DNA of 64,000 bases from Nostoc sp. B(2019) (lineage in GTDB: Bacteria > Cyanobacteriota > Cyanobacteriia > Cyanobacteriales > Nostocaceae). Shown here one piece after another: positions 1-45,836 of this stretch. Each line of letters opens with the position of its first letter. Position 1 is the stretch's first letter. Both the position numbers and the translations under genes were made by a program. The stretch covers positions 62,001-126,000 of the forward strand of contig NZ_WVID01000018.1 in the NCBI RefSeq assembly GCF_010091925.1. Direction: 5' to 3'. Under the pieces are notes generated by a model, which saw only the letters and a program-made list of their open reading frames with translations, was not told the DNA's origin and did not search any database.

Positions 1-1734
1 ACTAACTACGAGGGTTTTAGGAAATTGCTGTCGTAGTTTTTGTAAGCGCTCTTTTAGATAACGTTCGATTGTTTCACAACTATAACGCCCAGAGCGACTA
101 TCAGTAGTAACGTAGCATTTACGTCCTGCAAGTAAATCCAATTCCAGTTGGTGAATTAGCGGCGTTGGGTTAGGAGAATCATAAAAAGTAACGTCCCAAC
201 CTTGTTGAGGTTTCCACTGATTTACAACCACCCAAGGCGCTAATTTAATTCCTGCTAAACCTTGCAAATATTCTAAAGAAACATCTGATAAATCAGCATC
301 TTGAGCAATTACTAACCCTCCAGTGGTCAGAACTGTAGCAATTAGCTGCTGGAATAATTTTAGAATTTTGACACGTTTGTGTTTACAAGTATTACTGTTG
401 AGTAGATGCCATAAAGATTGTTCTACTTCATCTAAAATTACTATCGCTCCGTGCCAATTATCAGGGTTAAGTTTCCAAATGGAATCAACGCATAATCCCA
501 AAGAATGGAGCGGAGAGCGCGAGTGCAAAATTGGAGGAGTGGAGGAAAGTACTTTATAAGTTCCCCCCTTTCCCTCTCTTCCCCTCTCCCCATCTTCTTT
601 AGCTATTCCCCATTGAATACCAATCTTTTCACACAAAAACCGTCCCAAAATAATTCTATGAGTAATTAATAAAACAGGTTGATTTCTACTTTTAGCTTGT
701 TTAACAACGGCTTGCAATGCTGTAGTTTTACCCGTTCCTTTTGCTGACTTTACTCCTACCAATCCAGAAGTGGGGAAAGGGATTTCACCTATATAGGGAC
801 GGTTGATGGTGAGCGTAGCCGGAATTGTTAACTCGGTGTGAGGTTTAGTTTGAGCAAGGTAAATTTCTAAATCAACGCTTTGACGATGAATTTTATCGAA
901 AGCAGTTGCACCTTTGGCAACAATAAATTCATCAACCCCTTTTTCTATCCCTGGAAGTTCGACAACTTTAACCGAGCAATTTTTTTGCTGAAACAAACAA
1001 CCAAGTTGAGAAATAGCATTATTTATAGCAGCAGTTTTCTTGGGTTGAGTTTCAAAATCAAAGCAAATATAAAAGCTGCGTTTTGTAATAGCAAACTTCG
1101 CTAAGTCGGGAATCAGCTGACGACGGGTGACTTTGCCGAACTCATCTTTGACAACCCGATAACTGCTGGTAATTCCAGGAATACCAATGGCTGCATAGCC
1201 TTGTGTCAACAGCGCTGCTGCTTTCTTGACACCCTCGCAGATGATTAGGGGGATATTCTGTTGCATCACCCATTGCCAGAAGCCTTCAGCTTCGCCATCA
1301 GAGGTAATGCTGATATTGTCAGGCATGACTAGATTGTAACGCTGGGCAACTTGCTGCCATACTTGCAGCGATACCCGTAAACAAAACACTCGTGTTGATG
1401 TACTGGGGGGATGCTCGTATTTGACGAACTTACCATTGTTATTCTGCCGGGGTTTGTTTGGCTTAAAGCATCCCCACTCCATTGTTTGCCAATCATTTAG
1501 AGGATCTAGTCCAGAACACCACCAACCGCCTTCAGTAATATGAGCATAACGCTGCAACCAGCTATTTTTCACCATTCCCGTATTAGTGCGGGGGAGTAGC
1601 TCAGAAATCAACAGATACTCATAGGCAGTTACACCCTGGAAAGACCTAAAATTGAGCTGCGCCAGGTGTAAATCTATGCCACTGCTCTTGACTAATTCTT
1701 CAAGGTGTTGTGGGTGTAAATGTTGCAGATGCAT
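1..1734 (-). CDS. Plasmid-type replication protein, DUF3854 + helicase (CyRepA1-like), partial
   Basis: The reading frame is open from an ATG at 1734 to the window edge (578 codons); the C-terminus lies outside. The N-terminal half has a toprim-like DUF3854 segment with IICEGVKKAAAL near residue 165. This is followed by a P-loop (GVKSAKGTGKTTAL, about residues 325-338), a helicase-like LLITHRI strand and a DEVEQ Walker B/DExx box near residue 434. This order is typical of cyanobacterial plasmid replication initiators of the CyRepA1 type, which combine a toprim/primase-like region with an SF2-like helicase. Residues about 380-412 are a low-complexity stretch (EDGERGREGKGG and following) that looks like an in-frame insertion of G-rich repeat DNA. 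No clear Shine-Dalgarno precedes the ATG. Finding it beside chlB suggests an integrated plasmid gene or a chromosomal homologue. The family call is fairly sure; the role here is inferred. Confidence 0.72.
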   Translation of the reverse strand, partial: MHLQHLHPQHLEELVKSSGIDLHLAQLNFRSFQGVTAYEYLLISELLPRTNTGMVKNSWLQRYAHITEGGWWCSGLDPLNDWQTMEWGCFKPNKPRQNNNGKFVKYEHPPSTSTRVFCLRVSLQVWQQVAQRYNLVMPDNISITSDGEAEGFWQWVMQQNIPLIICEGVKKAAALLTQGYAAIGIPGITSSYRVVKDEFGKVTRRQLIPDLAKFAITKRSFYICFDFETQPKKTAAINNAISQLGCLFQQKNCSVKVVELPGIEKGVDEFIVAKGATAFDKIHRQSVDLEIYLAQTKPHTELTIPATLTINRPYIGEIPFPTSGLVGVKSAKGTGKTTALQAVVKQAKSRNQPVLLITHRIILGRFLCEKIGIQWGIAKEDGERGREGKGGTYKVLSSTPPILHSRSPLHSLGLCVDSIWKLNPDNWHGAIVILDEVEQSLWHLLNSNTCKHKRVKILKLFQQLIATVLTTGGLVIAQDADLSDVSLEYLQGLAGIKLAPWVVVNQWKPQQGWDVTFYDSPNPTPLIHQLELDLLAGRKCYVTTDSRSGRYSCETIERYLKERLQKLRQQFPKTLVVS

Positions 1735-29629: not shown

Positions 29630-29749
29630 TCAATGTAGCTTGTCTATTAAACAACGATAATCAAGTTCTAGTTGCTTTGCTTCTACCAACACTTGAGAAC
29701 ATTTACCTGTATCTTTGTCAACTTGGATTCGATGTTTAGCGTACTGCAT
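29630..29749 (-). CDS. Possible 39-residue ORF after the tyrosine kinase gene
   Basis: An ATG at 29749 overlaps the end of the kinase gene and starts MQYAKHRIQVDKDTGKCSQV; the ORF ends YRCLIDKLH. It has sensible codon content and overlaps its neighbour by 14 bases, which suits translational coupling. It has no recognised family and could be chance. Confidence 0.25.
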   Translation of the reverse strand: MQYAKHRIQVDKDTGKCSQVLVEAKQLELDYRCLIDKLH

Positions 29750-31940
29750 TATTGCTGAAAATTTTTGAGGATTCCTGGGTTACTTTTAGATCGGCATCCT
29801 CACTAAAGTAGTAGTAGCTATGGGGTTCATTTTTAGGAATCACACCATTTACTACCTGTCCCAGCACATTCTGACCAGATTTTTCCAAAAGTTCTTTAGC
29901 AAAAACTGCATTCACCGAATCAACTACCCCTGGCCGAACTACAAATAAAACACCATCAGCCATTTGCCCCAAAGTAGCAGCATCAGCAGCAACGTTTAAT
30001 GAGGGAGCATCAATAATCACAAAGTCGTATTTGGTAGCAAGAGTTTTCATCAATGTAGCCATTCGTTTGGAGTCGAGCAGGGATGCTGGACTAGGAGGTA
30101 CTACTCCAGAAGTCAGGACATCCAAGTTATCCATAACTTTTTTAATAGCTATTCTGATTTCAGCCTGCTCAACAATCAAATTGCTTAGACCTTCATTATT
30201 AGTCAGCTCCCAGATTTTATGCTGAACTGGACGGTGCAAATCTCCATCTATTAGTAAGACTTTACGCTCACTCTGAGCCATTGCTACAGCTAAATTGGCA
30301 GCTACCGTTGATTTACCTTCTGAGGGTACAGAACTGGTGACAACAATAACTTTTAGTTCTTTATCGGCACTTATAAACTTCAGATTCGCCTTGAGCATTC
30401 GGTAAGCTTCACTCATTGGGGAGCGAGGAGTATCTCTAACAACAATCCTTTGGCTATACGTCTCCGGTTCTTCATGCCCACGAATGATTTTTTTCGACTT
30501 ACTAGTGAAAGGAATTACTCCTAATAAAGTCAATCCCAGTAATGATTTTGCCTCATCAACGGTCTTAATAGATTTATCCCTTACTTCCAAAAAATACACA
30601 GCTGCAAAAGTAGCCATACTAGCCAATATGCCTGCACCCAAATACGAAATCATGGGAGAAGAACTAGGTTCTTGGGGAACTTCAGCTTCAGATATAATAC
30701 TTGCATTACCTACACTTTGATTCTCAGCAATCCGGCTTTCTTGCAGCTTTTGTAGCAGAAGTGAGTAGGTAGATTGAGCACCTTGGACTTTACGTTCTAA
30801 CTGGCGCTGTTGTTGTTCCAATCTCGGCAGATTGTTCAAACGTTGCTTATAAGAAAGTTGTAACCTAGATAAGGTAGTAGCCTGGTTTTCAAAACCCAAA
30901 CGGTTTGACTCTAATTCCACAAGTCTTGCAGAGAGCTGCTGTTGCAACTGTCCTAGTTGAAAGTTTTTGTTTAGTTGTGGTTTATTCGTTCCTGCAACCA
31001 TTGCAATGCGTTGTTGCAACAGCATATTTAAAGAATTTAATTTGTCCTCTAAGTTTCTAATTTGCGGATGGTTGTCCTGCAAAACAGTACGCCTAGCTGC
31101 CAATTGCGATTCTATCTGTTGGGTTTCTTTAACAATATCTTGCACTCCTGAAATCTGACTGAGGGAAGTCATCATCACCGCCTGCTGGGAGTTCATACCT
31201 AATAACTCACGGATTTCTTTAGACTGTGCATTGACATCAGCAAGTCTAGATTGAGTTTCGCCAAGTTGTTTTTGCAATTCTGCAATGATTTCCACAGCCT
31301 TAGTTACTTCTTCTTGTAAAGAAACAACTTGGTACTTTTCTTTAAACCTTGCTAGTTCTGCTTCTGCTTTTCGAACAATTAATTCCGCATCTGGAAGTTG
31401 TTTTTCGATAAACTTGCGGGCAGCAGATGCTTCATTTCTGAGAAAAGATACATTTTGTACTAAATAAACTTCTACAAGAGTATTAACAACTTTTGCAGAT
31501 GTTTCTCGATTGGTATCTTTGTAAGAAATTTGCAGGATATCAGCTCCCTTAACATCTTTTATAATTAGATTTTTGAGAAACTCCTTAGTTGTGAGTAAAT
31601 TACCTTTCTTGTTTTTCAGATTCAGTCGATTTATAGTTGTTCTGACAATTGGCATAGAACGGATCACTTCTGCCTCTGTATAGAGAGGATTAGTTTTCTG
31701 ATCCTGCACTAATGGTTCCAATTTACTTATTTCTGTTCCTACACCCGTTAAAGTTGAAGTGGTATTTATCCTTTGAAACTTTAGCTTTGCTTCTGCTAAA
31801 TAAGTAGGTTTTTTCAAAAAAGATAAAGCCAATAACAAAGTCAAAAAAACCGGGGCAAAAACACATATAGCAGGCAGCCAACGACGGTTCATTATTTGCC
31901 AATATTTGCCAATCTTTGGAGATGATTCAGGATATTCCAT
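29736..31940 (-). CDS. Wzc-like polysaccharide co-polymerase / bacterial tyrosine autokinase
   Basis: This 734-residue protein is the last gene of the polysaccharide locus. A first membrane helix (VFAPVFLTLLLALSF) starts the Wzz domain, and long coiled coils span about residues 160-400 (for example RKAEAELARFKEKYQ). The second helix (YLGAGILASMATFAAVYFL) leads to the cytosolic BY-kinase. The kinase has Walker A SSVPSEGKSTVAANLA, Walker A' KVLLIDGDLHRP and Walker B FVIIDAPS. The C-terminal tail has SYYYF as the autophosphorylation cluster. Together these control chain length and export of polymer made by the Wzy protein upstream. No separate phosphatase gene is seen. Confidence 0.94.
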   Translation of the reverse strand: MEYPESSPKIGKYWQIMNRRWLPAICVFAPVFLTLLLALSFLKKPTYLAEAKLKFQRINTTSTLTGVGTEISKLEPLVQDQKTNPLYTEAEVIRSMPIVRTTINRLNLKNKKGNLLTTKEFLKNLIIKDVKGADILQISYKDTNRETSAKVVNTLVEVYLVQNVSFLRNEASAARKFIEKQLPDAELIVRKAEAELARFKEKYQVVSLQEEVTKAVEIIAELQKQLGETQSRLADVNAQSKEIRELLGMNSQQAVMMTSLSQISGVQDIVKETQQIESQLAARRTVLQDNHPQIRNLEDKLNSLNMLLQQRIAMVAGTNKPQLNKNFQLGQLQQQLSARLVELESNRLGFENQATTLSRLQLSYKQRLNNLPRLEQQQRQLERKVQGAQSTYSLLLQKLQESRIAENQSVGNASIISEAEVPQEPSSSPMISYLGAGILASMATFAAVYFLEVRDKSIKTVDEAKSLLGLTLLGVIPFTSKSKKIIRGHEEPETYSQRIVVRDTPRSPMSEAYRMLKANLKFISADKELKVIVVTSSVPSEGKSTVAANLAVAMAQSERKVLLIDGDLHRPVQHKIWELTNNEGLSNLIVEQAEIRIAIKKVMDNLDVLTSGVVPPSPASLLDSKRMATLMKTLATKYDFVIIDAPSLNVAADAATLGQMADGVLFVVRPGVVDSVNAVFAKELLEKSGQNVLGQVVNGVIPKNEPHSYYYFSEDADLKVTQESSKIFSNNAVR

Positions 31941-32117: not shown

Positions 32118-32711
32118 TTATGTTGCTATCACTCGCAGCAGTGTTCTAACAATAATGAGTATATCGAAGCGTAAGCTGATTTGAGCAATATATTGCATAT
32201 TTAACTCTAATTTTTGAGGCATTATTTCTCTAACATAGACATTTTCTGGATTTGCAGTATGTTTTAAGAGTTCACTTTCATTTCGGAATTTGATTGAAGC
32301 TAGATCAGTTATGCCCGGAAGTACTTCTAATACTCGACGCTGTTCTGGTGTATAAAGTGCAACATACTTTGGTACTTCAGGACGAGGGCCAACAAAACTC
32401 ATTTCCCCTTTTACAACATTGAATAATTGGGGTAATTCGTCTAGCTTATACTTCCTCAAGAAGCGACCACTTCGCGTAATTCGTATATCGTTAGCAACTG
32501 TAATTTGTTTTCCGATACTCTCGGCTTTAGTCACCATAGTGCGGAACTTGTAGATACTAAATTCACGCCCGTAGCGTCCAATCCGAATTTGCCGAAAAAA
32601 CACGGGGCCTGGAGAATCCAGCTTAATCCATATTGCAATAATGAAAAATAGAGGCAGTAGGATTGCAATACCAATTAGGGCAAAAAATAAGTCAAACATT
32701 CGTTTAGTCAT
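32118..32711 (-). CDS. Undecaprenyl-phosphate sugar-1-phosphate transferase (initiating)
   Basis: This 197-residue protein has an N-terminal re-entrant or membrane helix (LFFALIGIAILLPLFFIIAI) and the phosphoglycosyl-transferase core KLDSPGPVFFRQIRIGRYGR, FSIYKFRTMV, followed by LDELPQLFNVVKGEMSFVGP RPE. It is the short monotopic type (ExoY/WecP-like without the large WcaJ N-terminal part). It puts the first sugar phosphate on the lipid carrier and so starts each repeat unit. Being near the kinase at the downstream end of the locus is common. Confidence 0.93.
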   Translation of the reverse strand: MTKRMFDLFFALIGIAILLPLFFIIAIWIKLDSPGPVFFRQIRIGRYGREFSIYKFRTMVTKAESIGKQITVANDIRITRSGRFLRKYKLDELPQLFNVVKGEMSFVGPRPEVPKYVALYTPEQRRVLEVLPGITDLASIKFRNESELLKHTANPENVYVREIMPQKLELNMQYIAQISLRFDILIIVRTLLRVIAT

Positions 32712-32792: not shown

Positions 32793-33944
32793 TCAAGTTA
32801 AAGTTTTTTTCACAACTTGAATAACGCGAGTTTGATCAGATTCGGTCATTTTTGTGTAAATTGGTAGGCTCACTATGCGTTCGTAAGCATAGGATGCACA
32901 GGGAAAATCCTCTGAGCAAAGGTTATAAGTATCGCGCCAGTAGGGATGCAAGTGTAGAGGAATATAGTGGACGCTACAACCAATTCCTTTTGCAGTTAGT
33001 TGTTCAATGAAGGTGTTGCGGCTCACTTCTACAGAGTCGTCTAAGCGAATTACATAAAGATGCCAAGAGTGAATATCACCCTCAGCAGGTTTTGCTGGTA
33101 GATGTAAAGGTAAGTTGGCTAGCTCTGCATCATATAGATTGGCGATCGCTGCCCGTTTTTTCTGGAATATCCAAGCTTTCTTCAATTGATGAATCCCTAG
33201 AGAAGCCGCTAGATCGGTCATGTTGTATTTGAAGCCTGGTGCAACTACCTGATAATGCCAAGAAGGTTTAGTTGAAGTGTAACGATCAAAAGCATCTTGA
33301 CTGATGCCATGTAACCGCATGATCCGACACCGCTTAGCAACTTCAGGATTGCGGGTAACGAGCATCCCACCTTCGCCAGTTGCAATAGTCTTAGTTGCAT
33401 AAAAACTATAGACTGTCACATCACTATTTAGACTACCAATCAACTTACTCTGATAGGTTGTTGGGATAGCATGGGCAGCATCTTCTACAACTTTCAAGCC
33501 ATACTTTTGAGCGATCGCCAGAATTGGTTCCATATCACAGGCCAGTCCTCCAAAATGGACGGGCATGATGGCTTTAGTTCGAGGGGTAATTGCTGCCTCT
33601 ATTTTTGTCGGGTCAATGTTCAGAGTGAGTGGATCAATATCAACAAAGACTGGATTTGCCCCTAAATAGCGAATCACTTCTGCTGTAGCAGTGAACGTGT
33701 GAACTGTAGTAATGACCTCATCACCAAGGCTAATTCCTAAAGCCTCCAGAGCTAGATGTAACCCTGATGTGGCAGAATTCACTGCGATCGCTTCTACACC
33801 ATGCCCAATAAATTCGGCAAAATCCTGTTCAAATCGCTTCGTTTTTGCTCCGGTAGTTAGCCAACCAGACCTCAGAGAATGGACTACTTCAGCAATTTCT
33901 TCCTCTCCAATATCGGGCAAGGCAAAAGGCAGAAAGTTTTCCAT
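32793..33944 (-). CDS. DegT/DnrJ/EryC1-family sugar aminotransferase
   Basis: This 383-residue PLP enzyme transfers an amino group to a nucleotide keto-sugar. It has [35 protein letters not shown] (phosphate loop), [20 protein letters not shown], and the PLP lysine in [16 protein letters not shown]. It should act on the 4-keto sugar product of the FlaA1/CapD-type dehydratase at 43827, giving an amino sugar for the repeat unit. It is 81 bases before the phosphoglycosyl transferase. Confidence 0.94.
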
Positions 33945-34078: not shown

Positions 34079-35275
34079 CTAGCCCAAATGATTAGGAGAT
34101 AATAATCTTTTTTCTGTTAGCAGCCGAACATATTCTTGATATATAGCTTTGCACATTGCTTCTGGAATAAAGTCTTGTAAAATTAGCTCGCGCCCTGCCT
34201 GCCCGTGACTGTGACGCAATTTTGAATCCTGCAAATATGTGCGAATTGCATCTGTTAATGCCTGTGCATTATAGGGTGAAACCAATATGCCTGTGACACC
34301 TTCTTGGATTGCGTCTATACAACCCGGAATGCGCGTAGCTACTACTGGCAATTGCATTGCTGCCGCTTCTAAAATTACAGTACTCAAACCCTCCCGATAA
34401 GATGGCAGAGCCAAAATATCCATTGCCGCATATAAGGGGGATATGTGCGATCGCCTTCCTGTCAAATGGATGCGGGCATCATTTCTGAGCGTATATTCCA
34501 CATCTTCTGATACTGGATCTTGGGGTTCAAAAGGGCCGACAACAAGCAAATGCAAATTGGGAAACTCAGAGGACAAAATTTTCCACGCTGATACCAGTTC
34601 TGCTAAACCCTTATCACGAACGATCCGCCCCACAAAGCCTATTACTAAAGCATCGGTAGGAATATTAAATTGTTTGCGCGTTTTTAGGCGGACATTTGCA
34701 GCCAAATTTGCTTTATTGAACTGATTGGCAGCATCCACACCCGTAACCCCACCTTTAAGCAGCACTTTGACCTTCGCCTCTGGACAAAGATTTTCAGAAA
34801 TTGCTACTTTGCGAATTGAATGGCTGACACACAATACTTGGTTGGCAAGCAAACAGGAAACCTTTTCACTCAACGAAAGCAACAAGCGTTTGTAGCCAAC
34901 GGCGGTCATTAATGGTAAACCATATATGTGATAGATCCGTATAGGAACTCCTGCTAGCCAAGCACTAATCATACCCAATAGTCCTCCTTTAGGACTGTAA
35001 GCATGAATAATGTCGGGACGAATTTGGCGTAAATGCCGCCAGAGGTGAAATAAGGAATACAGATCCTTTAATGGAGTAATCTGTCTAGGCATATTGACAG
35101 AATGAACGGTAATTTGCTCGCGATCGCCAAATTGAGTCAGCAACTCACTAGGAGAAGCGATCGCGTGAATTTCAAAACCTCGTTCCTTCATGTAACTAGA
35201 CTGACCGTTGATAAATTCTAATGTTTCAGCCACGGTTGAGATATGTACTAGCGTCATTTTGGGATATTGAGTCAT
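34079..35275 (-). CDS. Glycosyltransferase family 4
   Basis: The 398-residue GT-B enzyme has TLVHISTVAETLEFINGQSS at the N-terminus, FVGRIVRDKGLAELVSAW as the donor-binding lobe start, and YREGLSTVILEAAAMQLPVV with the E-x7-E motif. It is probably a family of undecaprenyl-diphospho-sugar galactosyl/glucosyl transferases. It adds one sugar during repeat-unit assembly on the inner face of the membrane. The gene starts 13 bases after the GINT1-like gene 35289-36206. Donor and acceptor are unknown. Confidence 0.9.
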   Translation of the reverse strand: MTQYPKMTLVHISTVAETLEFINGQSSYMKERGFEIHAIASPSELLTQFGDREQITVHSVNMPRQITPLKDLYSLFHLWRHLRQIRPDIIHAYSPKGGLLGMISAWLAGVPIRIYHIYGLPLMTAVGYKRLLLSLSEKVSCLLANQVLCVSHSIRKVAISENLCPEAKVKVLLKGGVTGVDAANQFNKANLAANVRLKTRKQFNIPTDALVIGFVGRIVRDKGLAELVSAWKILSSEFPNLHLLVVGPFEPQDPVSEDVEYTLRNDARIHLTGRRSHISPLYAAMDILALPSYREGLSTVILEAAAMQLPVVATRIPGCIDAIQEGVTGILVSPYNAQALTDAIRTYLQDSKLRHSHGQAGRELILQDFIPEAMCKAIYQEYVRLLTEKRLLSPNHLG

Positions 35276-35288
35276 GTCAATACACTTC

Positions 35289-36206
35289 CTATGTCCAAGC
35301 TCCTAATGACATTTGATATCCATCCACACAGGCTATCCATTTATTTTCATCAATCTTGTGAGCATCAATATGATGCATTCCTGTTTTATTCCAGCCGGAG
35401 CCACTTGCTTGAAGAATGGGATTTTCTGCAATTGGTTTTTCTTTATAAGCTGTCGTTGTCAGCACAATGATTTCAAATGCCCGAACTTTTGTACCGTATA
35501 AGTACTGGTCATCTTGGGCATATCTAAAAACCGTGCCATTATTTACGATAACTCTCCCTCCTGGTCTGGCTATTTTTGCATCGCCCTCAATTACAGGACT
35601 TTGAGGATGCTCAATCCAATGACTCATGATTTCATCAGCATAATAGAGTCGCAGAATATTACTTGCTGTTGATGATGTAAATAGCCACCACTTATTATCA
35701 AAGTAAAAAATAGAAGTATCTACATAATCTCTACCCTCAATTAGATTTTTCACAAAACACCATTGGCGGGGAAAATCAACTGCTTTATACAAGCGAATAG
35801 CATTTGCTTGTGAGCTTTCTGGAATCATGTAATAATCGTTATTCCAATAAAATACATAAGGGTAAGACAAGTGAAAATCTTCCCGCAAGATGATTTTTTG
35901 ATAATTCCAGTTGAGGACATCTTGGCTAGTTGCTAAACCAATTTCACCTAGCCCATTAGCCTTATTCAGTACTTCAAAAAACATATACCAAGTACCATTC
36001 GCCAAAATCATAAAAGGATCGGCAATAAACTCTGCTGACACATCGCTGACATCCTTAGCAGTCAAAACCGGATTGCAAATATTGTTAAGAGCTTCCCAGT
36101 CAACCAAAGAATTTCCTTGATAAATTCCAATTGCCCAATCATTCTTTTTTCCAATAATCTTTTTAATTTGATTCTTAATAACAGGAAATAGATTAATATT
36201 TAGCAT
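35289..36206 (-). CDS. GINT1 N-domain-like protein (five-bladed-propeller type), copy 1
   Basis: The 305-residue protein has CNPVLTAKDVSDVSAEFIAD, PFMILANGTWYMFFEVLNKA, HLSYPYVFYWNNDYYMIPES, FTSSTASNILRLYY and ARPGGRVIVNNGTVFR. This matches the domain found at the start of plant GINT1 (glucosamine inositolphosphorylceramide transferase) and alone in bacteria, a beta-propeller resembling GH43/GH32. Whether it binds or cuts glycans is not known. A close paralogue is at 42738-43733 in the same locus. There is no signal peptide, so it should act in the cytosol during sugar-unit assembly. Confidence 0.75.
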   Translation of the reverse strand: MLNINLFPVIKNQIKKIIGKKNDWAIGIYQGNSLVDWEALNNICNPVLTAKDVSDVSAEFIADPFMILANGTWYMFFEVLNKANGLGEIGLATSQDVLNWNYQKIILREDFHLSYPYVFYWNNDYYMIPESSQANAIRLYKAVDFPRQWCFVKNLIEGRDYVDTSIFYFDNKWWLFTSSTASNILRLYYADEIMSHWIEHPQSPVIEGDAKIARPGGRVIVNNGTVFRYAQDDQYLYGTKVRAFEIIVLTTTAYKEKPIAENPILQASGSGWNKTGMHHIDAHKIDENKWIACVDGYQMSLGAWT

Positions 36207-36294
36207 ATTGAATTCGCTTCTGATTTTTTAGTACAGATAATACGCCAACGCTAATTCAAGAGTGAAGTAGCAACTTAAGTTGCTACTTGATAAA

Positions 36295-37494
36295 TTAAAA
36301 TAACTTCGCTGCCTTTAACCACTCTTGGGTGTTTTCTCGCGCATAGCGATAAAAAGCGACCTGCTGCTCTTTGAGAACTTCTCTTTTGTACTCTTTTGCC
36401 TTATTTAGATTACGAGCAGACATTAAAGCCATGCGTTCTGGGTTGGTGACAACTTCTCGAATCTTATGTGCTAAAGCAACTGCATCTCCTGCTGTCACCA
36501 TATCTTCAGCAGGTAGCAATTCGGGGATACCACCCACCGTTGAGCCAATGCACGGTAGCCCTCGCGCCATCGCCTCAACCATCGCTCTGGGCAAGCCTTC
36601 CATGCGAGAAGGCAAAAGGAAAAGGTCGCACTGATCTAATTGCTCACGCACAGCTTCGCTGGTTGGTAACTGTCCGCGAAACAAGACGCGATCGCCTAAG
36701 CCCAGTGCCACAGATTTTGCCTCTAACTCTGCTCGATACCGACCATCTCCGACAAAAATTAACTTCAGATCTAATCCTTCTTTTACGCAGATAGAAACAG
36801 CTTCAATCAATACATCTGGCGCTTTGTAGAGTTGAGCCAGTGAACCTACTATGATTAGCTTAAATGTGCGTTTTTCCTGTTGAATCGGGCGGGGTTTGGA
36901 TACTAGCGTACCTTCTAGAAGCTCTACATCAGATACGCCTACAGAGTATTTTGGGCAAGGATAACGTCGTTGTAGTGCTTGTTTTGTGACATAAAGAGCC
37001 GCAGAAGCCTGCTGGCACTGCCGTTGTAATTGGCGGGTAAACCACCAACGAAACAAGGGTTGTAAGGGATGCTTGATAGATCCTGGAGCATAATCATCGT
37101 AGGGGTCAGCAATCACTTCAACAAAGTATGGTCTTCGTGATGGCATAGAGTTCCAGGCTTCGCCAGCAATTAAGCATGGTACGTGCAACTGTATAGCCTC
37201 AGCATTTGCTATTGCCTTGCTTATAGCTCTTTTTATACTCACGTAGTTTTTCACGTACTCCCATGATGGCCCTACAAAGTCGGGTATTGGAATAGGTTTG
37301 ACTCCATAACCTGAAGCCTTAACCCATGCTTTAGGAGGTTCGCCACAGAATTTAACACGCACCAACAAATGAACTTCATTGAATACATCTAAATATCTAG
37401 TCCAGATACTATAACGAGTTGCTGCATCCGCAGTCCATAGAGTGCCATCGCTAGTGATCACAAAGTGAGCAGAGTTTGTAACTAATACGTTCAT
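36295..37494 (-). CDS. Glycosyltransferase family 4
   Basis: The 399-residue GT-B enzyme has FKLIIVGSLAQLYKAPDVLI, RVLFRGQLPTSEAVREQLDQ and FLLPSRMEGLPRAMVEAMAR (E-x7-E). It is a second transferase of the locus, presumably adding another sugar of the repeat unit. It lies 88 bases before the GINT1-like gene. Confidence 0.9.
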   Translation of the reverse strand: MNVLVTNSAHFVITSDGTLWTADAATRYSIWTRYLDVFNEVHLLVRVKFCGEPPKAWVKASGYGVKPIPIPDFVGPSWEYVKNYVSIKRAISKAIANAEAIQLHVPCLIAGEAWNSMPSRRPYFVEVIADPYDDYAPGSIKHPLQPLFRWWFTRQLQRQCQQASAALYVTKQALQRRYPCPKYSVGVSDVELLEGTLVSKPRPIQQEKRTFKLIIVGSLAQLYKAPDVLIEAVSICVKEGLDLKLIFVGDGRYRAELEAKSVALGLGDRVLFRGQLPTSEAVREQLDQCDLFLLPSRMEGLPRAMVEAMARGLPCIGSTVGGIPELLPAEDMVTAGDAVALAHKIREVVTNPERMALMSARNLNKAKEYKREVLKEQQVAFYRYARENTQEWLKAAKLF

Positions 37495-37547
37495 TTGTTT
37501 GGTTTAACCTAGTTAAGCATTTGTTGAGAAAACTCAGATCATCTATA

Positions 37548-38801
37548 TCATTCCTTCGTTGTGCTCAGAACTCTTGACTGAGATAATTGATAGATATGAA
37601 CATCTTCAGGCTTTATAAAACCTCTTAATTTACCATCTTGAAAACGCATCCCTGATGGACGCCCTGAGAATAGTGGTTGCGCTGAACCTTTTGCTGGAGT
37701 CGGAATTGTGATCACAACTTGTCTTGTTTCTGTTTGTGATGTATTCAGAACAACTAAATAAACACTGCTGCCGTATATCCACTGTCCGGCAAGCACATCA
37801 TCAAATTTAGTATCGAGCTTCGTCAAAGTGCCTTCTAACAATACTGGGGTGAGCCTGTTTATTTCGGGCACTATAGACTTTACACGACTCCATACATCCG
37901 GTTTTTGTCTTATGCTGTTATCCTTATAGCCTTCATAAGTGTAGAAAAGAATACCTTTAACACCAGCTAAAAGTGCCTGATATGTCATGTTATACACTTC
38001 ATTAGCAGTTGGCCAGCGTCCTTCTTCCCAACGGAAAGTCTGCAAGTTTGCAATGACCGGACGATTATATTTATTTGCTTCAAAGCGACCAATATTGAAG
38101 ACATGATGTACTGTACTTAAATCATTTGCTAAACCTTTAGGTTTGTTGTTGAAAGGATAGCTAATAGGGTAAGATTGACCGCCAATTAAATCTGCAATAT
38201 TAGAATGGCCTAACCATTTTCTCGACCAACCACTGATACTAATGTAGGTAAGATGTTTAGGATCAATAGCTTTAATTTGTTTGTGAAAAGCTAATATTTC
38301 ATTTCGGGTTTCGTGATCACCAACATCATCGGCAATTCCCCAGCCCAGAACAGCTGGTTTATCCTTGAATTTCTTGACAACTGCAAGAGGGTCATCAACA
38401 TTAAAGCTTGTGATAACAAAAACACCAACTCGCTCAGCTTCATCAAGAAATACACCATAATTATCAAGGTTGTCACAAGAGGCAAAAATGGTGTTAAATC
38501 CCGCAGTAGCAAGATCACGAACTGCTTGTATTAACTGTTGAAAAGTCAAATTATATGACTCATGGTAGAAACCAAACGGGAAGAATGGCTCGCCTTTAAT
38601 TCTAATCGTGCTGTTACTGTTGTTTTTAATAGTGCTATTAGTAATTGTACTAGTCACTTTATTATCAACCAAATTGTGAGCTTGATAAATTTTGTTACCG
38701 TAAGCAGAGAAACAAAGAATAAGTAACATGGGTAATATAAATAATAATATTGTTCGCCTCCATTTAAAAATATATTCTTTAAGCATTTCTCTCCTTAACA
38801 A
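37548..38801 (-). CDS. Membrane-anchored TIM-barrel glycoside-hydrolase-like protein
   Basis: This 417-residue protein has an N-terminal membrane anchor (TILLFILPMLLILCFSAYG). A beta/alpha barrel of the GH-A clan type follows, with RIKGEPFFPFGFYHESYN, GFNTIFASCDNLDNYGVFLD, VLGWGIADDVGDHETRNEIL and GILFYTYEGYKDNS. The acid of ADDVGD/DHET and the Glu of TYEGY sit where clan GH-A enzymes carry their acid/base and nucleophile, but this placement is my estimate. It probably trims or releases the polymer in the periplasm or cell surface, as hydrolases inside exopolysaccharide loci often do. The exact GH family is not recognised. Confidence 0.65.
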   Translation of the reverse strand: MLRREMLKEYIFKWRRTILLFILPMLLILCFSAYGNKIYQAHNLVDNKVTSTITNSTIKNNSNSTIRIKGEPFFPFGFYHESYNLTFQQLIQAVRDLATAGFNTIFASCDNLDNYGVFLDEAERVGVFVITSFNVDDPLAVVKKFKDKPAVLGWGIADDVGDHETRNEILAFHKQIKAIDPKHLTYISISGWSRKWLGHSNIADLIGGQSYPISYPFNNKPKGLANDLSTVHHVFNIGRFEANKYNRPVIANLQTFRWEEGRWPTANEVYNMTYQALLAGVKGILFYTYEGYKDNSIRQKPDVWSRVKSIVPEINRLTPVLLEGTLTKLDTKFDDVLAGQWIYGSSVYLVVLNTSQTETRQVVITIPTPAKGSAQPLFSGRPSGMRFQDGKLRGFIKPEDVHIYQLSQSRVLSTTKE

Positions 38802-38929
38802 AAATTGATTTACTTGCTTTCTAGCATTTTAATATCTCAAAGTGAGCAAAATTAGGTGTCTTACTTTTTATTAATAAATGAAATTATGGCATGAGTATAA
38901 TATTCTTCTATTTCTTTTTTCGGATTTAG

Positions 38930-40129
38930 TTATGTCACAATAATTCCAATACACAGAAAATAAGCAACAGTCATTGCTGTACCTAAAGCACTAAACATCC
39001 CCTCACCCATAGATGTAATCCAGAAACATATTGTAATCACCAGAGGTGCAATAGCGTAGTGGTCTGTCTTTGAATGAGTTTTGAAATATAAATAAGCATA
39101 GAAGATACTAAGAGATGCTAGAAATAACATCAAAAATGCCGCAATAATACCGATTGTTCCAAGGGTATTGATAATCGTATTATGACCTCCTAAACCAAAA
39201 TTTAATTCAAAGTAGTCTGCACCATTACCCAATAACTTTACATCTTCAAATGTCTTATTCCAAATATATTCTCTACCACTCAAACCTTCTTTATCTTGTA
39301 ATTGATTAAGGTTATTCAAGAAAAATAAATAAAACTGTTCATCTGCTAATAATAAGATTGCGCTGATGCTTAGGGCAATACTACTAACAAATTTAATCAA
39401 AAATCCAGGTTTTTGAAATAACCTCCACATAAATATAGATAACATACCAAAAAAGGCAATTAAGGATGTACGTGCATTAGCTAAAATAATAATTACAAAG
39501 AGAAAAATTAAACATAAAATAATCGGTAAAACATACCATAATCTCTTTTTAGCAGACAAACTACCAATCAAAATAATAAAAAGTCCAGATGCCATTGTCA
39601 CACTTGTAAATCCTAAATCATTGGGATTAGGAAAGACGCCTGCATAACCTGTATATGAATGACCTTGAAATTGATTGATTGGGTGTAGCAATAAAGACAT
39701 AACTATATAAGGAAGAAGACCCAAAAAAAGTGACGTAGCAAGCAGAAAATTTGCATATTGTTTCATCAACTTAGGTAAGCTATAGAAGAAAATCATTGGG
39801 CTTATAATCATAAACCAGAGTCCATCTCTAACAGATACTAAATCATCGTTAACAACTCCAGATATTACTGATATAAAACCTAGTAAAATCCAGACTATAA
39901 TTAGAGGCAGTTGTTTCTTCGGAAACCCCCATATATCAAAGCGGGATAATAGTAGAAGAGTCATTAATGCTGTAAGAATTAGAACATAGCGCAGTTTTTC
40001 GATGGCTGAATCTAGGGGGATTTCAGAACTCCCTAAGTTAGTAATAGATGATGAGCCGAATAAGACGGCTAGAATTATTAATGTAAGAATTTGTTGCTTT
40101 TTAAATTCAAGATTCATGGAAGTTTGCAT
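38930..40129 (-). CDS. Wzy-like O-antigen ligase/polymerase family protein
   Basis: The 399-residue protein has about eleven membrane helices and one large periplasmic loop with LQDKEGLSGREYIWNKTFED and FELNFGLGGHNTIINTLGTI. The latter carries the G-x-H-N-x-x-I/L motif of the Wzy/WaaL (PF04932) family. Wzy polymerises repeat units on the periplasmic side; a ligase would instead attach a chain to lipid A. A Wzx flippase and Wzc kinase in the same locus favour polymerase. Confidence 0.85.
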   Translation of the reverse strand: MQTSMNLEFKKQQILTLIILAVLFGSSSITNLGSSEIPLDSAIEKLRYVLILTALMTLLLLSRFDIWGFPKKQLPLIIVWILLGFISVISGVVNDDLVSVRDGLWFMIISPMIFFYSLPKLMKQYANFLLATSLFLGLLPYIVMSLLLHPINQFQGHSYTGYAGVFPNPNDLGFTSVTMASGLFIILIGSLSAKKRLWYVLPIILCLIFLFVIIILANARTSLIAFFGMLSIFMWRLFQKPGFLIKFVSSIALSISAILLLADEQFYLFFLNNLNQLQDKEGLSGREYIWNKTFEDVKLLGNGADYFELNFGLGGHNTIINTLGTIGIIAAFLMLFLASLSIFYAYLYFKTHSKTDHYAIAPLVITICFWITSMGEGMFSALGTAMTVAYFLCIGIIVT

Positions 40130-40277
40130 ACTAATAACTTAGATTTGATTGTTTGAATAAAAATTTACAACGTTTTTATGCTTTGTAATATCTAAGTTCT
40201 AAGACAAATTTTACTAAAATCAATAAGGTTTTCAAGTCTATAATGTAATAACTTAAGCCTATTAATTATTTACTTTA

Positions 40278-41468
40278 TCAAGTGACTATTAGATTTTTCT
40301 GTAGAACAGAGAAGTAATTTAGTTGCTCCATATATAAAAATTCCAATTCTCTAGCTCCTCTTTGAATATTAAATAGACTATTTTCTACAGTTTTAAACGC
40401 TTCTAATTGGTTGATTTTTGCTGTATCTTGCTTAGTTTCCATGACTGCATCGGCCCAAGTAGAGGCTGGTTTCAATAACGATATCCGATGCATCAAAGGT
40501 TTTACTACATCTGCTTCTTGAGGAATAACATTAGAAAGAATACAAGATAGTCCCGCGGCTTGTGCTTCAACCAACACTAAGCCCAATCCTTCATAAAGAG
40601 ATGGGAAAATTAATAAATCCATAGCACCTAACATCAGTCGGGGAACATCAGAACGGACACCTGCGAAAATTACACGGTCAGCCAAGCCTATCTGAACAAC
40701 TTTTTGCTCAATCTCTGGGCGTAGCTTGCCGTCACCAACCAACAAGAGGCGCATCTTCGGTTCTCGCTTGGCAATTTCTGATGCTATGTCCAGAAGAAAC
40801 AAATGATTCTTTTCCGCATCAAATCTACCTACATGACCCAGAACAAAGGCATCCGCAGGTATATCCAATTCAGCACGCACAGCATTAGAGTCAAATGTAT
40901 TTCGGAATGGAGCTAGGTCAATACCACAATAAAGTAATTGCCAACGGGGATCGTTTTCCCACTTCATCCCAAATAAATCTGCTGCTGCATTTCGACTACA
41001 TCCCAACCCAACAGTGGCATACTGGGAAATCCATCTTTTCATCAAACTCAGATACAATTTACGCTTCAAACCAGTTTTAGCTTCAACTGAGGAACTATCA
41101 AAGTGACTGTGGGCAATACGGACGGGAATACCTAGCTGATGGGCCAAACGGAGAACGTAACCACTAAAGTGATGGCCATGACTGTGAATAATGTCATAAG
41201 GTCTATGCTTTTTTAGAATCTGTTTAAAGTTGTAGCCATAACTCCAAGGTTGGGAGTGTGGATGAGGGCAGACAATAATCTTGCTACCAAGAGTACGAAT
41301 TTCGTGATCGTAATGGCAGGGTTCAGTTGTATGAACTAGAAAATCTATCTGGAAGCGATCGCGATTAATCTGGCGGAGGATATGCATCAGCCAAGTTTCT
41401 GTTCCAGCCCGGTTCATCCCACCAACAACTTGCAGAATGCGGATAGAAGGTTTGTTACATAACGTCAT
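40278..41468 (-). CDS. Glycosyltransferase family 1/4 (EpsF-like)
   Basis: The 396-residue GT-B protein starts with RILQVVGGMNRAGTETWLMH (typical of EpsF-like transferases) and contains VLGHVGRFDAEKNHLFLLDI and LLIFPSLYEGLGLVLVEAQA (E-x7-E). Its ATG overlaps the stop of the Wzx gene by four bases (ATGA), so the two are translationally coupled. It is the third GT of the locus. Confidence 0.92.
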   Translation of the reverse strand: MTLCNKPSIRILQVVGGMNRAGTETWLMHILRQINRDRFQIDFLVHTTEPCHYDHEIRTLGSKIIVCPHPHSQPWSYGYNFKQILKKHRPYDIIHSHGHHFSGYVLRLAHQLGIPVRIAHSHFDSSSVEAKTGLKRKLYLSLMKRWISQYATVGLGCSRNAAADLFGMKWENDPRWQLLYCGIDLAPFRNTFDSNAVRAELDIPADAFVLGHVGRFDAEKNHLFLLDIASEIAKREPKMRLLLVGDGKLRPEIEQKVVQIGLADRVIFAGVRSDVPRLMLGAMDLLIFPSLYEGLGLVLVEAQAAGLSCILSNVIPQEADVVKPLMHRISLLKPASTWADAVMETKQDTAKINQLEAFKTVENSLFNIQRGARELEFLYMEQLNYFSVLQKNLIVT

Positions 41469-42733
41469 GATTTTACTCCTTCCATATATCTGTGTGGTTT
41501 ATGCAGTGCATGGAGAATAACTGCCAAACTTAGACCTGCTTGAATAATTGCCGCAATCAATAGCGCGATCGCAGTTCCTAACAATCCCCACTTGGGCAGC
41601 AACCATAAACAAGCGATGGCTGAGATACTTGCCACAACGGCGGACAAAGGCATTTGAATGCGGAAGTACCGGGCTGCCGTCATTCCATAGCCTAGGAACG
41701 ACGATATGTAGTTAATCCCAGCCGCAACCATCAGCCAGATAAACAAATTTGTATGCTCGGCATATTCAGGCCGATACAGGATAGTTAGAATCTGCCGCCC
41801 AGCCACCACAGCCACTAAAACACCTGCTCCGCCCAATAGAGTAGCAATTCCTACCAGCTTGAGCAGGAGGGTGCGGAAAGCTATGCGATCGCCCTCTGCA
41901 TAATATTTGGCCAAACGAGGAATGGCTGACTCACCCAAGGCATTCATTACCATACTTCCTGCCACCATCAGATAAGCTATAGCTGCAAAAATGCCCAGTT
42001 CTCGCTCACCTAAATATCGCTCAATAAAGTAGCGGGGAATATTACTATTAAGTGAAATTAGCATCATCACAAGCCCTAAAGGCAAACAGAGCCATATCAG
42101 ATGTGCTAAAGTTTTCCAATGCCAACGAGGTTGTAATTGTGACTTCTGCTTTAGTATTAAGATACCGCTACGAATGTCGTAGCCAAACAACACCACAACC
42201 CAAGCAAAAATTAACCCAACTACACCCCACAGAATACCTCCAGATATATACACTCCGATGCCCAGTAGTAGCAGTGATAGAGGGCCTTTAATCATCAACG
42301 ACATAGCAATTCGCTCCATCTGCTCATGCTGCTGAATTAGCCCATAAAATACATCGCTAATAGACTCAAACGCCTTTGCTAGACCAATCAGAAAGATAAT
42401 TAAGGATATTTCCCAGCGATATCCTCCTGACAGACTAATAACTGCAATGACCAGAAGTGCCAACATTGTCGAAATTAGCCTCAGCCCCAGGTAATCGCTA
42501 AAACGATATTGTTTTTTAGCGTCTGTTGCTTGGACAATTCGTAGTTGGAGATTTGTCAACATAATTACGGGTGCTGTGACTGCCAGTCCCAAAGTAAATT
42601 GACCTACCATTTCTGGACTACCAAGTTTAGCTAGCATGACCAGTATTCCCCACTGGCAAACTGCATAAACAAAATTGCCAGTGAAAGTCCATGAGAAATT
42701 GCGGCGTAGTGTTAGGATCTTTTTTTGTTGCAT
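41465..42733 (-). CDS. Wzx-like oligosaccharide flippase (MOP superfamily)
   Basis: This 422-residue protein has about twelve membrane helices, with FSWTFTGNFVYAVCQWGILV, MLTNLQLRIVQATDAKKQYR and YLMVAGSMVMNALGESAIPR. It exchanges lipid-linked repeat units across the inner membrane. It lies between a GINT1-like gene (four-base gap) and a glycosyltransferase (four-base overlap), so this trio is a tight transcription unit. Confidence 0.9.
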   Translation of the reverse strand: MQQKKILTLRRNFSWTFTGNFVYAVCQWGILVMLAKLGSPEMVGQFTLGLAVTAPVIMLTNLQLRIVQATDAKKQYRFSDYLGLRLISTMLALLVIAVISLSGGYRWEISLIIFLIGLAKAFESISDVFYGLIQQHEQMERIAMSLMIKGPLSLLLLGIGVYISGGILWGVVGLIFAWVVVLFGYDIRSGILILKQKSQLQPRWHWKTLAHLIWLCLPLGLVMMLISLNSNIPRYFIERYLGERELGIFAAIAYLMVAGSMVMNALGESAIPRLAKYYAEGDRIAFRTLLLKLVGIATLLGGAGVLVAVVAGRQILTILYRPEYAEHTNLFIWLMVAAGINYISSFLGYGMTAARYFRIQMPLSAVVASISAIACLWLLPKWGLLGTAIALLIAAIIQAGLSLAVILHALHKPHRYMEGVKS

Positions 42734-42737
42734 CAGG

Positions 42738-43733
42738 TCAAAGTGATATTAACTTTTGCAGATCTACACCAAAAACCAACAGTATTTGATATCCATCCAC
42801 ACAGGCTATCCATTTATCTTTTGTAATCTGGTGAGGATCGATATTATGCATGCCAGTTTTATTCCAACCAAAGCCGCTGGGTTTTAAAATAGGATTTTCT
42901 TTAACTTCTTTTTCTTTATAAGTTGTTGTTGTTAGATGAGTTATTTCAAACGCTCGCACTTGAGTCCCATATAAATGCTCATCATCCTGGGTATATCGGA
43001 AAATTTGATCATCATGTACTACAACTCTACCTCCTGGCCTTGCTATGTTTAAATTGTCTTCTATAAGAGGGCTTTGAGGATGTTCAATCCAATGTCCCAT
43101 CAGGTCATCAGTATAGTAAAGACGTAGAATATTGCTTTGTGTTGATGACGTGAACATCCACCACATTTCATTAAAATTAAAAACAGAACTATCTACATAA
43201 TCCCTGCCATCTATTAAAACTTTCAAAAATGCCCATTTAGTGGGAAAATCAACTGCTTTGTATAATCGAATAGAATTAGTTTCATAACTCTCTGGAATCA
43301 TGTAGTATTCATTTTCAAATTTGAATACATAAGGATAAGACAAATGGAATGCTTCTTTAAGTACTATTTGTTTATAATTCCAATGGAATCCATCATTGCT
43401 AATTGCTAGTCCTATTTCCCCTCTATCATTAAGACTATTCATCACTTCAAAAAACATATACCAAGTGTCATTATCACAAACCATAAATGGATCGGCAACA
43501 AATTCAGCTATTACATCTGTTACATCTTTGGCAGTCAAAACTGGATTCTTGATATTTTCTGTTGCAGCAAAATCAAAAATAGATTTGCCTGTATAAATTC
43601 CAATTGACCAGTCACATTTTCTTCTAACAAAAACTCTTGCCATTCTTTTGAAATCAGAAATATATCTGGATTTCCTAGCAGATCCTCTATCTAAAGCCTG
43701 TGGTAAGTTGGGAGTTTTATGCATTAGTTTCAT
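42738..43733 (-). CDS. GINT1 N-domain-like protein, copy 2
   Basis: The 331-residue protein is a clear paralogue of 35289-36206: NPVLTAKDVTDVIAEFVADP, FHLSYPYVFKFENEYYMIPE, SSTQSNILRLYYTDDLMGHW, EHPQSPLIEDNLNIARPGGR and GWNKTGMHNIDPHQITKDKW all align block for block. By eye more than half of the residues are identical over about 290 positions. It has about 25 more N-terminal residues and a different C-terminal tail (VFGVDLQKLISL). It sits four bases before Wzx. Retention of two copies in one operon suggests different partners or acceptor sugars. Confidence 0.75.
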   Translation of the reverse strand: MKLMHKTPNLPQALDRGSARKSRYISDFKRMARVFVRRKCDWSIGIYTGKSIFDFAATENIKNPVLTAKDVTDVIAEFVADPFMVCDNDTWYMFFEVMNSLNDRGEIGLAISNDGFHWNYKQIVLKEAFHLSYPYVFKFENEYYMIPESYETNSIRLYKAVDFPTKWAFLKVLIDGRDYVDSSVFNFNEMWWMFTSSTQSNILRLYYTDDLMGHWIEHPQSPLIEDNLNIARPGGRVVVHDDQIFRYTQDDEHLYGTQVRAFEITHLTTTTYKEKEVKENPILKPSGFGWNKTGMHNIDPHQITKDKWIACVDGYQILLVFGVDLQKLISL

Positions 43734-43826: not shown

Positions 43827-45836
43827 TTACGCCAGCATATTCCTATTTGAATTTGTGATCAGACTACTATTTATTGAATTACCTATTAACACATTATTTT
43901 CCAAGTATTTTGGTTTGTATCCCGATACCAACTGTTCCAATAAAAACAGAATAGAATTAGTATCATTTCTAGCTGCTGCTATACACAATGCTTCCACCGC
44001 GAAATCCATATTTTCTGGAATAATCCGACTGGCATTCTTGACAAAAAATAGTTTTTCATGTTGAGTTGGTTCATACTCCTCCCCTTTAATAAACAGTTCC
44101 TCAAATAACTTTTCCCCTGGTCGTAAGCCTGTAAAGACAATATCAATATCTTTGTTTACCTCATAGCCTGAAAGGCGAATTAATTCCTTTGCTAAATCAA
44201 CAATTTTCACAGGTTCACCCATATTCAGCATTAAAACTTCACCACTGCGACCAAGTACCGCAGCCTGTAAAACAAGTTGAACTGCCTCTGGGATGGTCAT
44301 GAAATAACGACAGATATCGGGATGAGTAACGGTTATTGGGCCACCTGTAGCAATTTGTTTTTTGAAAGTGGGAACGACACTACCACGGCTACCCAAAACA
44401 TTGCCAAAACGCACGGTAACATAATGCTTTCCACTTTTTCTGGCAGCTTGCAGCACTAACATTTCGGCGACTCTCTTACTAGCCCCCATAACATTGGTGG
44501 GATTAACAGCCTTGTCCGTGGAGATCATCACAAAATGTTTTACATTATGTTCCAGCGCCAGTTCTAGTAAATTTTTTGTTCCGATCACATTGTTAGTGAT
44601 TGCTTCTGATGGATTTAATTCCATAAGAGGAACGTGCTTATGAGCCGCTGCATGGAAAATTATGTCAGGTTGGAATTGCTTAAAAGCGTGTTCTAATCGA
44701 GACCAAAACCGAATATCAGCAATGAAAGTGGAAATATCAGGGGTGTTTCTTGAGCATTTGCCATCGTTTTTAAGTGCTTGGATAAGTTGTTCTAGCTCTT
44801 GTTGAATGTTGAATACAGAATTTTCTCCATGTCCAATAAGTATGATTCTGCTAGGCTGGCATTTGAAAATTTGCCGACAAAGTTCACTACCAATTGAGCC
44901 ACCTGAGCCTGTGATTAATACTGTCTTGCCCTTGAGAAATTTAAACACTCGCTCAATATCCGTCTGTACTGGTTCTCGTCTGAGCAAATCCTCAATTCTG
45001 ACATCCCGAATACTATCTACTCGCACACGCTCATTGAGGATTTCATGTATTCCAGGTAAGGTACTAGCCTGCGTTCCAGTTGCTTTACAAATATCTAGGA
45101 TTTCCCGAATAACTTGTCCCGCAACAGTAGGCATGGCAATGATAACTTTATGGATTTGGAGAGATTTCAAAGTATCAGAAATTTGATGGCGATCGCCAAC
45201 TACTGGAATGCCGCTAATATGTGCATTTAACTTTTGAGGATCATCGTCAATGAAGGCAACAGCCTGAAAACCCAGTTGGGGATTGCGTTGCATATCTTGT
45301 ACAAGAGAAACTCCGGCACTACCAGCACCAATAATCAGCACCCGCTCCTGTGGGTTAAATACTGCTTGTCGTTGGCTAAATCTTTCCACAACCCGAAAAC
45401 TGAAACGCAATGCTCCAATGAAAATACACGACAATAACCCATCAATAAATGGTAGCGATCGCGGCAGGTTATTTATAATAAAAGGCTCTGTGCCATGAAG
45501 AATATCAAATGTCATGGTTTGGACAATTACTGCACCCACCATCAACATGGTTATATATGTCAGTTCCTCAACACTGGCATAGCGCCAGTAACGTCTATAA
45601 AAACCAAAACTCCAAAATACAGTTAGTTTGACTGCTAAAAATAGTATTGTTGCAATTCCTAGTTCTGGAATGTGTGCTTTATCCAGATAGCCATCTAAAC
45701 GCAGAAGCAGAGCTAATAAGGGAGTGATTGAAAAAACAATGATATCGAAAATTAACAAGTGCGTATTTCTCAGCTTCAGCAAATTGTTTAATGAACTGTT
45801 AATTAACTTTTGGAAGATTCTAAATAAGAAATTCAT
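43827..45836 (-). CDS. FlaA1/CapD-type nucleotide-sugar 4,6-dehydratase, membrane
   Basis: This 669-residue protein is first in the polysaccharide transcription order. Four N-terminal membrane helices (about residues 25-145) precede a first Rossmann-like region (ERVLIIGAGSAGVSLVQDMQ) and the SDR catalytic domain with GKTVLITGSGGSIGSELCRQ. A block of ADIRFWSRLE and HAAAHKHVPLMELNPSEAI comes next. MISTDKAVNPTNVMGASKR carries the modified Tyr/Met-x3-Lys active site of this group. It probably converts UDP-GlcNAc to a 4-keto-6-deoxy sugar, which the aminotransferase at 32793 could then use. The promoter should lie in the AT-rich gap above 45836. Confidence 0.94.
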   Translation of the reverse strand: MNFLFRIFQKLINSSLNNLLKLRNTHLLIFDIIVFSITPLLALLLRLDGYLDKAHIPELGIATILFLAVKLTVFWSFGFYRRYWRYASVEELTYITMLMVGAVIVQTMTFDILHGTEPFIINNLPRSLPFIDGLLSCIFIGALRFSFRVVERFSQRQAVFNPQERVLIIGAGSAGVSLVQDMQRNPQLGFQAVAFIDDDPQKLNAHISGIPVVGDRHQISDTLKSLQIHKVIIAMPTVAGQVIREILDICKATGTQASTLPGIHEILNERVRVDSIRDVRIEDLLRREPVQTDIERVFKFLKGKTVLITGSGGSIGSELCRQIFKCQPSRIILIGHGENSVFNIQQELEQLIQALKNDGKCSRNTPDISTFIADIRFWSRLEHAFKQFQPDIIFHAAAHKHVPLMELNPSEAITNNVIGTKNLLELALEHNVKHFVMISTDKAVNPTNVMGASKRVAEMLVLQAARKSGKHYVTVRFGNVLGSRGSVVPTFKKQIATGGPITVTHPDICRYFMTIPEAVQLVLQAAVLGRSGEVLMLNMGEPVKIVDLAKELIRLSGYEVNKDIDIVFTGLRPGEKLFEELFIKGEEYEPTQHEKLFFVKNASRIIPENMDFAVEALCIAAARNDTNSILFLLEQLVSGYKPKYLENNVLIGNSINSSLITNSNRNMLA

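Follow-up and report, generated by a model that had tools for sequence, protein, structure and literature searches.

Two genes of a single polysaccharide operon in the cyanobacterium Nostoc sp. B(2019) encode intact, single-domain members of the GINT1_N family (PF24793), each predicted to be a five-bladed propeller with an enzyme-like pocket. The genes lie in a window of 64,000 nucleotides, the whole stretch of DNA that we analysed (NCBI RefSeq assembly GCF_010091925.1, contig NZ_WVID01000018.1, positions 62,001 to 126,000). The family's plant namesake, GINT1, is a glucosamine inositolphosphorylceramide transferase with a domain of glycosyltransferase (GT) family 64 (PMC9113257); in that paper the extra half of AtGINT goes under the name of an additional exostosin domain, unlike the naming used by Pfam. 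We call the two bacterial genes A and B.

42738 to 43733, minus strand: copy A, 331 residues, GINT1_N (PF24793) five-bladed propeller (open reading frame, Pfam, structure model)
42792 to 43613, minus strand: part of A that Pfam assigns to GINT1_N, residues 41-314
35289 to 36206, minus strand: copy B, 305 residues, GINT1_N (PF24793), with all ten pocket residues of A
35319 to 36137, minus strand: part of B that Pfam assigns to GINT1_N, residues 24-296

A first-pass annotation had proposed that these are homologous genes matching the N-terminal domain of plant GINT1, and on both counts it was right, as it was on their coordinates. A and B align without a gap over 291 residues, 191 of them identical (66%; BLASTP E 5e-153), and PF24793 covers nearly its whole profile of 304 positions in each (A, 225 bits over positions 8-303; B, 213.2 bits over 9-303; cut-off 27). 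It is the only Pfam family found on A, and B adds weak matches to GH32N and to glycoside hydrolase family 43 (GH43). Unlike the plant protein, neither copy has a GT64 domain, and both stand in a bacterial polysaccharide operon.

The residue set that we assign to the pocket, numbered as in A, is D81, E96, H130, S132, E148, D181, R232, Q249, H296 and D313, and both proteins have all ten. We followed these positions through two alignments, one of 61 family rows and one of 21 rows picked for their divergence (16-65% identity to A). Across the 61 rows D81, E96, D181, R232 and H296 never change, nor does P134; H130, S132 and E148 are kept in 60, Q249 in 59, and D313 in 60 with one gap. The divergent rows tell much the same story: D81, E96, S132, D181, R232 and H296 are present in 21/21, Q249 in 20, and H130 and E148 in 19. 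D313 is aligned in ten of the 21; the C-termini of the remaining 11, judged by eye, each have an Asp closing the last strand. To place these residues on blades we combined the DSSP strand positions of the model with the published text on the GH43 enzyme 4QQS. By the model's strands, D81 would belong to blade 1, H130 and S132 to blade 2, D181 to blade 3, R232 to blade 4 and H296 to blade 5; in blades 1, 2, 4 and 5 the second strand probably ends with E96, E148, Q249 and D313, respectively. We infer an enzyme-like pocket on the top of the propeller, conserved down to 16% identity, and a residue set kept in this way argues for chemistry. The first-pass annotation had said that a lack of conserved pocket residues would refute it; the residues that we assign to the pocket are nearly invariant and complete in both copies.

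The fold comes from an AlphaFold2 model of A built from the 61 rows (mean predicted local distance difference test score (pLDDT) 90.6, predicted template modelling score (pTM) 0.85). It is all-beta, a five-bladed propeller preceded by a basic N-terminal helix, which bears out the earlier suggestion of a propeller of the GH43/GH32 kind. Foldseek's first matches are to GH130, GH117 and GH159, with GH117 chains at ranks 5-9. The VIA comparison gave Z scores of 24.7 for GH130, 22.9 for GH159, 22.3 for GH62, 21.7 for GH43 (4qqs) and 21.2 for a deacetylase (6n1a); GH117 chains were not among the 50 VIA matches listed, which speaks neither for nor against them. The aligned ranges begin at about model residue 50-61 and end at about 315-323, so the propellers among those 50 run without a circular shift. 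We considered the N-terminal helix as a membrane anchor and do not press the idea, since a net charge of at least +3 is kept in only 38 of the 61 rows (A has +7 and B +4).

At the level of sequence, the GH43 family PF04616 exceeds its cut-off on two PF24793 genes, in genomes G015 and G009; on B it scores 20.3 bits, under the cut-off, and GH32N is barely above its own (22.7 against 22.1 bits). Profile-profile comparison was not significant: against cyanobacterial GH43, with a shallow template of seven sequences, the probability was 1.1% and the alignment blade-shifted, and against GH130, with a template of four, there was no match. PDB sequence searches returned weak partial matches only (best E 8.6e-6, several of them blade-shifted), and a search with the C-terminal fragment returned one unrelated match.

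How does the pocket compare with those of known propeller enzymes? The GH43 enzyme HoAraf43 (4QQS) is a five-bladed propeller like A (241 residues aligned, model 60..319 to chain 4..280). According to PMC4356313, blade 1 carries its base D17, blade 2 has W72 and E75, and D126, E195 and H256 lie in blades 3, 4 and 5, respectively. Read by blade order, D17 would correspond to D81, the pKa modulator D126 to D181, and H256 to H296; Trp72 and the metal ligand Glu75 would fall at S132 and Y135, and Glu195 at A231/R232. Residue 231 is Ala or Ser in 61/61 family rows and Glu in one of the 21 divergent rows, and R232, as noted, is invariant in both alignments. The GH43-type blade-4 Glu is thus absent, and we reject a canonical GH43 glycosidase. 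A's E96, H130, E148, R232, Q249 and D313 form a different invariant set from that of GH43. Of the GH43-like acidic active site that had been anticipated, then, the two Asp residues are kept, whereas the general acid of blade 4 is, by blade position, an invariant arginine, and with that replacement the word glycosidase does not follow.

Other propellers offer other comparisons. The GH130 mannoside phosphorylases are the best structural matches of A (5b0p, Z 24.7, root-mean-square deviation (rmsd) 2.6, 249 residues aligned). Their invariant Asp, given in PMC4599007 as D142 of BT3780 in an EDPR-type stretch, corresponds through 7fip to Y133 of A in the unshifted HMMER register and to D81 in the shifted one. 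The GH117 anhydro-alpha-L-galactosidases share the fold (Foldseek E 1.8e-9) and, according to PMC11574756, use a His/Asp acid with Asp90 as base, a precedent for a clan-like propeller acting without a carboxylate acid. A weak alignment (domain score -0.2 bits) sets their essential Asp245 with D181 of A and their Glu167 with Y135; the dyad His302/Asp320 would fall, by spacing, at R232/Q249. His296 and Asp313 had been a tempting equivalent of that dyad (a spacing of 17 versus 18), which we dropped because alignment and blade order put the GH117 pair in blade 4 and His296-Asp313 in blade 5. The last comparison is with FpGalNAcDeAc (6n1a, 6n1b), an N-acetylgalactosamine deacetylase, which is a precedent for deacetylation of amino sugars on a propeller. 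It resembles A in fold (rmsd 3.2, 255 aligned, 12% identity).

Both genes belong, as the first-pass annotation had it, to one Wzx/Wzy-type polysaccharide operon. Every gene listed below, from the dehydratase to the Wzc-like protein, is on the minus strand, as are A and B.

43827 to 45836, minus strand: CapD/FlaA1-like NAD-dependent dehydratase (PF02719 and PF13727), which opens a conserved capD-A-wzx module
41465 to 42733, minus strand: Wzx-type flippase (PF01943; Pfam)
40278 to 41468, minus strand: GT4-type glycosyltransferase (Pfam)
38930 to 40129, minus strand: Wzy-like polymerase (Pfam; Wzy_C 27.2 bits, under the 31.7 cut-off)
37548 to 38801, minus strand: open reading frame of 417 residues, for which neither a family above the Pfam cut-off nor, at E 0.1, a PDB sequence match was found
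36295 to 37494, minus strand: GT4-type glycosyltransferase adjoining B upstream (Pfam)
34079 to 35275, minus strand: GT4-type glycosyltransferase beginning 13 bases past the end of B (Pfam)
32793 to 33944, minus strand: DegT/DnrJ/EryC1-type sugar aminotransferase
32118 to 32711, minus strand: bacterial sugar transferase (PF02397), 197 residues (Pfam)
29736 to 31940, minus strand: Wzc-like chain-length protein with an ATPase domain (GNVR, AAA_31)

The dehydratase has PseB as its best NCBIfam match, at 199.8 bits far under the cut-off of 407.75. Together with the DegT aminotransferase and the small sugar-phosphate transferase it forms a set that we take to be analogous to PglF, PglE and PglC, and the set suggests that the operon's glycan may contain an amino sugar. 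The 417-residue frame has a hydrophobic N-terminal stretch and by eye resembles barrel glycosidases.

The two copies have separate histories. In a tree of 82 rows (support given as pairs of values) both fall inside a cyanobacterial set of 34 rows (98/99), where A groups with sequences from Komarekiella and Nostoc (five rows, 97/93), and Gloeocapsa L057 groups with B and the orthologue of B (three rows, 95/93). Nostoc sp. MG11 (L056) carries both copies; its dehydratase, A and Wzx are 91%, 82% and 95% identical to ours, and the block from the GT4 gene at 40278 to B is 96-99% identical (98% for the 417-residue frame). At two Komarekiella loci the dehydratase, A and Wzx are 92-93%, 81-82% and 91-94% identical, and the two genes after Wzx drop to 66-67% and 45-46%; neither B nor the 417-residue frame occurs within the DNA examined around these Komarekiella operons. 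The pattern of identities indicates that B is part of what the variable cassette carries, and that A stays with the conserved opening genes of the operon. Taken with the tree, it leads us to reject the idea that a single gene was duplicated locally, within the operon, a point on which the first-pass annotation's picture of paralogues needs correcting. Its further thought, that the two copies may act on two different units, would fit such a cassette history.

Judged from substitution patterns, both genes are under purifying selection. A gives dN/dS values of 0.28, 0.31 and 0.33 against three relatives, and B gives 0.19 against its one orthologue, from few changes (dN 0.0097, dS 0.05); between A and B the ratio is 0.25, with dS near saturation (1.06). 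B is shorter than A by 26 residues, yet its conserved stretch is complete to the end, and the 305-residue form is also present in a sister species. These features, the constraint and the full pocket set led us to reject B as a pseudogene or truncated copy.

A genome-wide search of our own Nostoc finds PF24793 only at A and B. Within a set of relatives 12 of 60 genomes have a match, ours included, and three have two; the pair shares one contig in two of those three (our genome and G003). Phylum-wide, 21/386 genomes carry the domain, again counting our own, and the picocyanobacterial family contributes a match in 8/151 genomes. A named genome collection yielded 375 pattern stretches, 338 of them confirmed as relatives, from which we kept 79 loci. 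Their hosts are Cyanobacteriota together with metagenome-assembled and other genomes labelled Chloroflexi, Nitrospirae, Planctomycetes and desulfobacteria, and also Acidobacteria, Verrucomicrobia and others, with one metagenome-assembled Nanoarchaeota genome. That last contig (L067) carries a GINT1_N gene which the tree groups with Chloroflexota sequences (94/89), a placement that mis-binning or transfer could possibly explain. A viral collection gave 23 pattern-matching stretches and no relatives among them. With so many bacterial relatives, and a family already in Pfam, the first-pass annotation's new class of enzyme was too strong a phrase. Nor are the copies found elsewhere only as pseudogenes, which it had said would count against the idea: all of the 79 kept loci have open frames, none shorter than 300 residues (that of L106 extends past the contig end). 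Another Nostocaceae genome (L030) has a 109-residue frame that covers no more than the final part of GINT1_N, a copy that has decayed or been broken.

The domain also occurs in fusions, and its neighbours are sugar genes. In Ca. Brocadia carolinensis a 666-residue protein (L075:6960-8960) joins GT4 to GINT1_N. Four picocyanobacterial proteins (L026, L027, L028 and L131; 548-585 residues) have an N-terminal formyltransferase-like domain and a C-terminal GINT1_N; Formyl_trans_N is above the Pfam cut-off only in L028, with which L027 and L131 align co-linearly over most of their length. L132 and L133 carry different N-terminal regions with no Pfam family. We also scanned genes around the kept loci, called by crude picking of open reading frames and leaving out by eye close relatives, very short genes and those on the opposite strand: 51 of the 78 first neighbours upstream, 56 of the 77 downstream, and 68 of the 141 second neighbours. 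Sugar-nucleotide dehydratases or epimerases account for 23 of the 51 upstream genes and GT4 enzymes for 12; the 56 downstream include nine GT4 and eight Wzx genes, and GT4 recurs in 24 of the 68 second neighbours. Fusion partners and neighbours together argue that the domain acts on a glycan intermediate, next to a transferase.

A literature search found no published function for the bacterial form of GINT1_N, in agreement with the first-pass annotation. Our favoured reading, a tentative one that we would rate somewhat short of an even chance, is a glycan-tailoring hydrolase that acts alongside the glycosyltransferases and leaves the chain uncleaved. Both proteins would work in the cytosol on a repeat-unit intermediate linked to lipid; each copy would act on the sugar that its own cassette handles, with the blade-1 Asp (D81) serving as base in a hydrolytic tailoring step and not in chain cleavage; the missing blade-4 acid speaks against ordinary glycosidase action. 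Among single chemistries we rate removal of the N-acetyl group from a hexosamine highest, although taken by itself it is improbable. What recommends it is the GH117 precedent, the fold of 6n1a and the deacetylation of assembled glycosyl inositol phosphorylceramide (GIPC) predicted for plants in PMC9113257, taken together. Spelled out, and no less improbable, GINT1_N would be an amino-sugar de-N-acetylase. In plants it would supply the predicted activity, not yet tied to a named enzyme, that turns N-acetylglucosamine-GIPC into glucosamine-GIPC, and would do so from within the very protein whose GT64 domain adds the sugar; in bacteria it would free the amine of a hexosamine on the lipid-linked intermediate, one amino sugar per copy. 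A formyltransferase needs a free amine, and in one lineage the fused formyltransferase-like domain would be the recipient.

Several observations weigh against these proposals. No activity is known for the GINT1_N domain, the pocket positions derive from blade topology, and the hexosamine of the operon's glycan is itself deduced. The position of the GH43 blade-2 metal ligand, Y135, varies (Y 56, H 4 and N 1 of 61 rows; six residue types in the 21), so a GH43-like metal site is not conserved in PF24793. At the level of fold, the match to deacetylase 6n1a is no closer than the matches to glycosidases. GT4 is fused to the domain at a single one of the 79 loci, the sole long fusion among them; three of the four formyltransferase-like fusions stand among housekeeping genes, with only L028 in a glycan cluster, and the 20 neighbours scanned around them include no aminotransferase and no amino-sugar genes.

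The domain may instead be a non-catalytic, acceptor-binding module, an ex-glycosidase propeller that keeps the growing glycan in place for the partner transferase, acting in trans in A and B and in cis where the two are fused. Its attachment to three unrelated transferases (GT4, formyltransferase-like and plant GT64) would suit such a role, as would the absence of the GH43 general acid; but a set of about ten residues, charged or polar and conserved to 16% identity, exceeds the usual needs of binding, and fusion to enzymes leaves catalysis possible, so we consider this unlikely while giving it real weight. A serious rival too, though to our minds a less likely one, is that the domain trims or edits the finished glycan as an atypical glycosidase, phosphorylase or transglycosidase whose acid is not a carboxylate. 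The Asp residues of blades 1 and 3 in GH43 positions, the PF04616 and GH32N matches and the His/Asp acid of GH117 all lend it something. The GH117 His302, however, by spacing falls at R232 in blade 4, the profile-profile comparisons gave next to nothing, a chain-cleaving enzyme would be an odd partner for a synthetic glycosyltransferase, and no signal peptide is apparent by eye. As for the pair, B could be a redundant passenger that a cassette swap brought in and that duplicates the work of A. The near-identical block in Nostoc sp. MG11, the Komarekiella operons that have A without B within the DNA examined and the identical pocket residues make this quite possible, if doubtful, for B is constrained, as judged from few changes, and the copies differ at one third of their positions.

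The domain is a link between the glycosylation of sphingolipids in plants and the assembly of polysaccharides in bacteria, and its pocket, conserved like that of an enzyme yet lacking the hallmark acid of its structural relatives, makes the chemistry a real question. Should GINT1_N prove to be the GIPC deacetylase, A, B and other small proteins from bacteria would be an easy test case, and a question about the sugars of plant membranes would become testable in bacteria.

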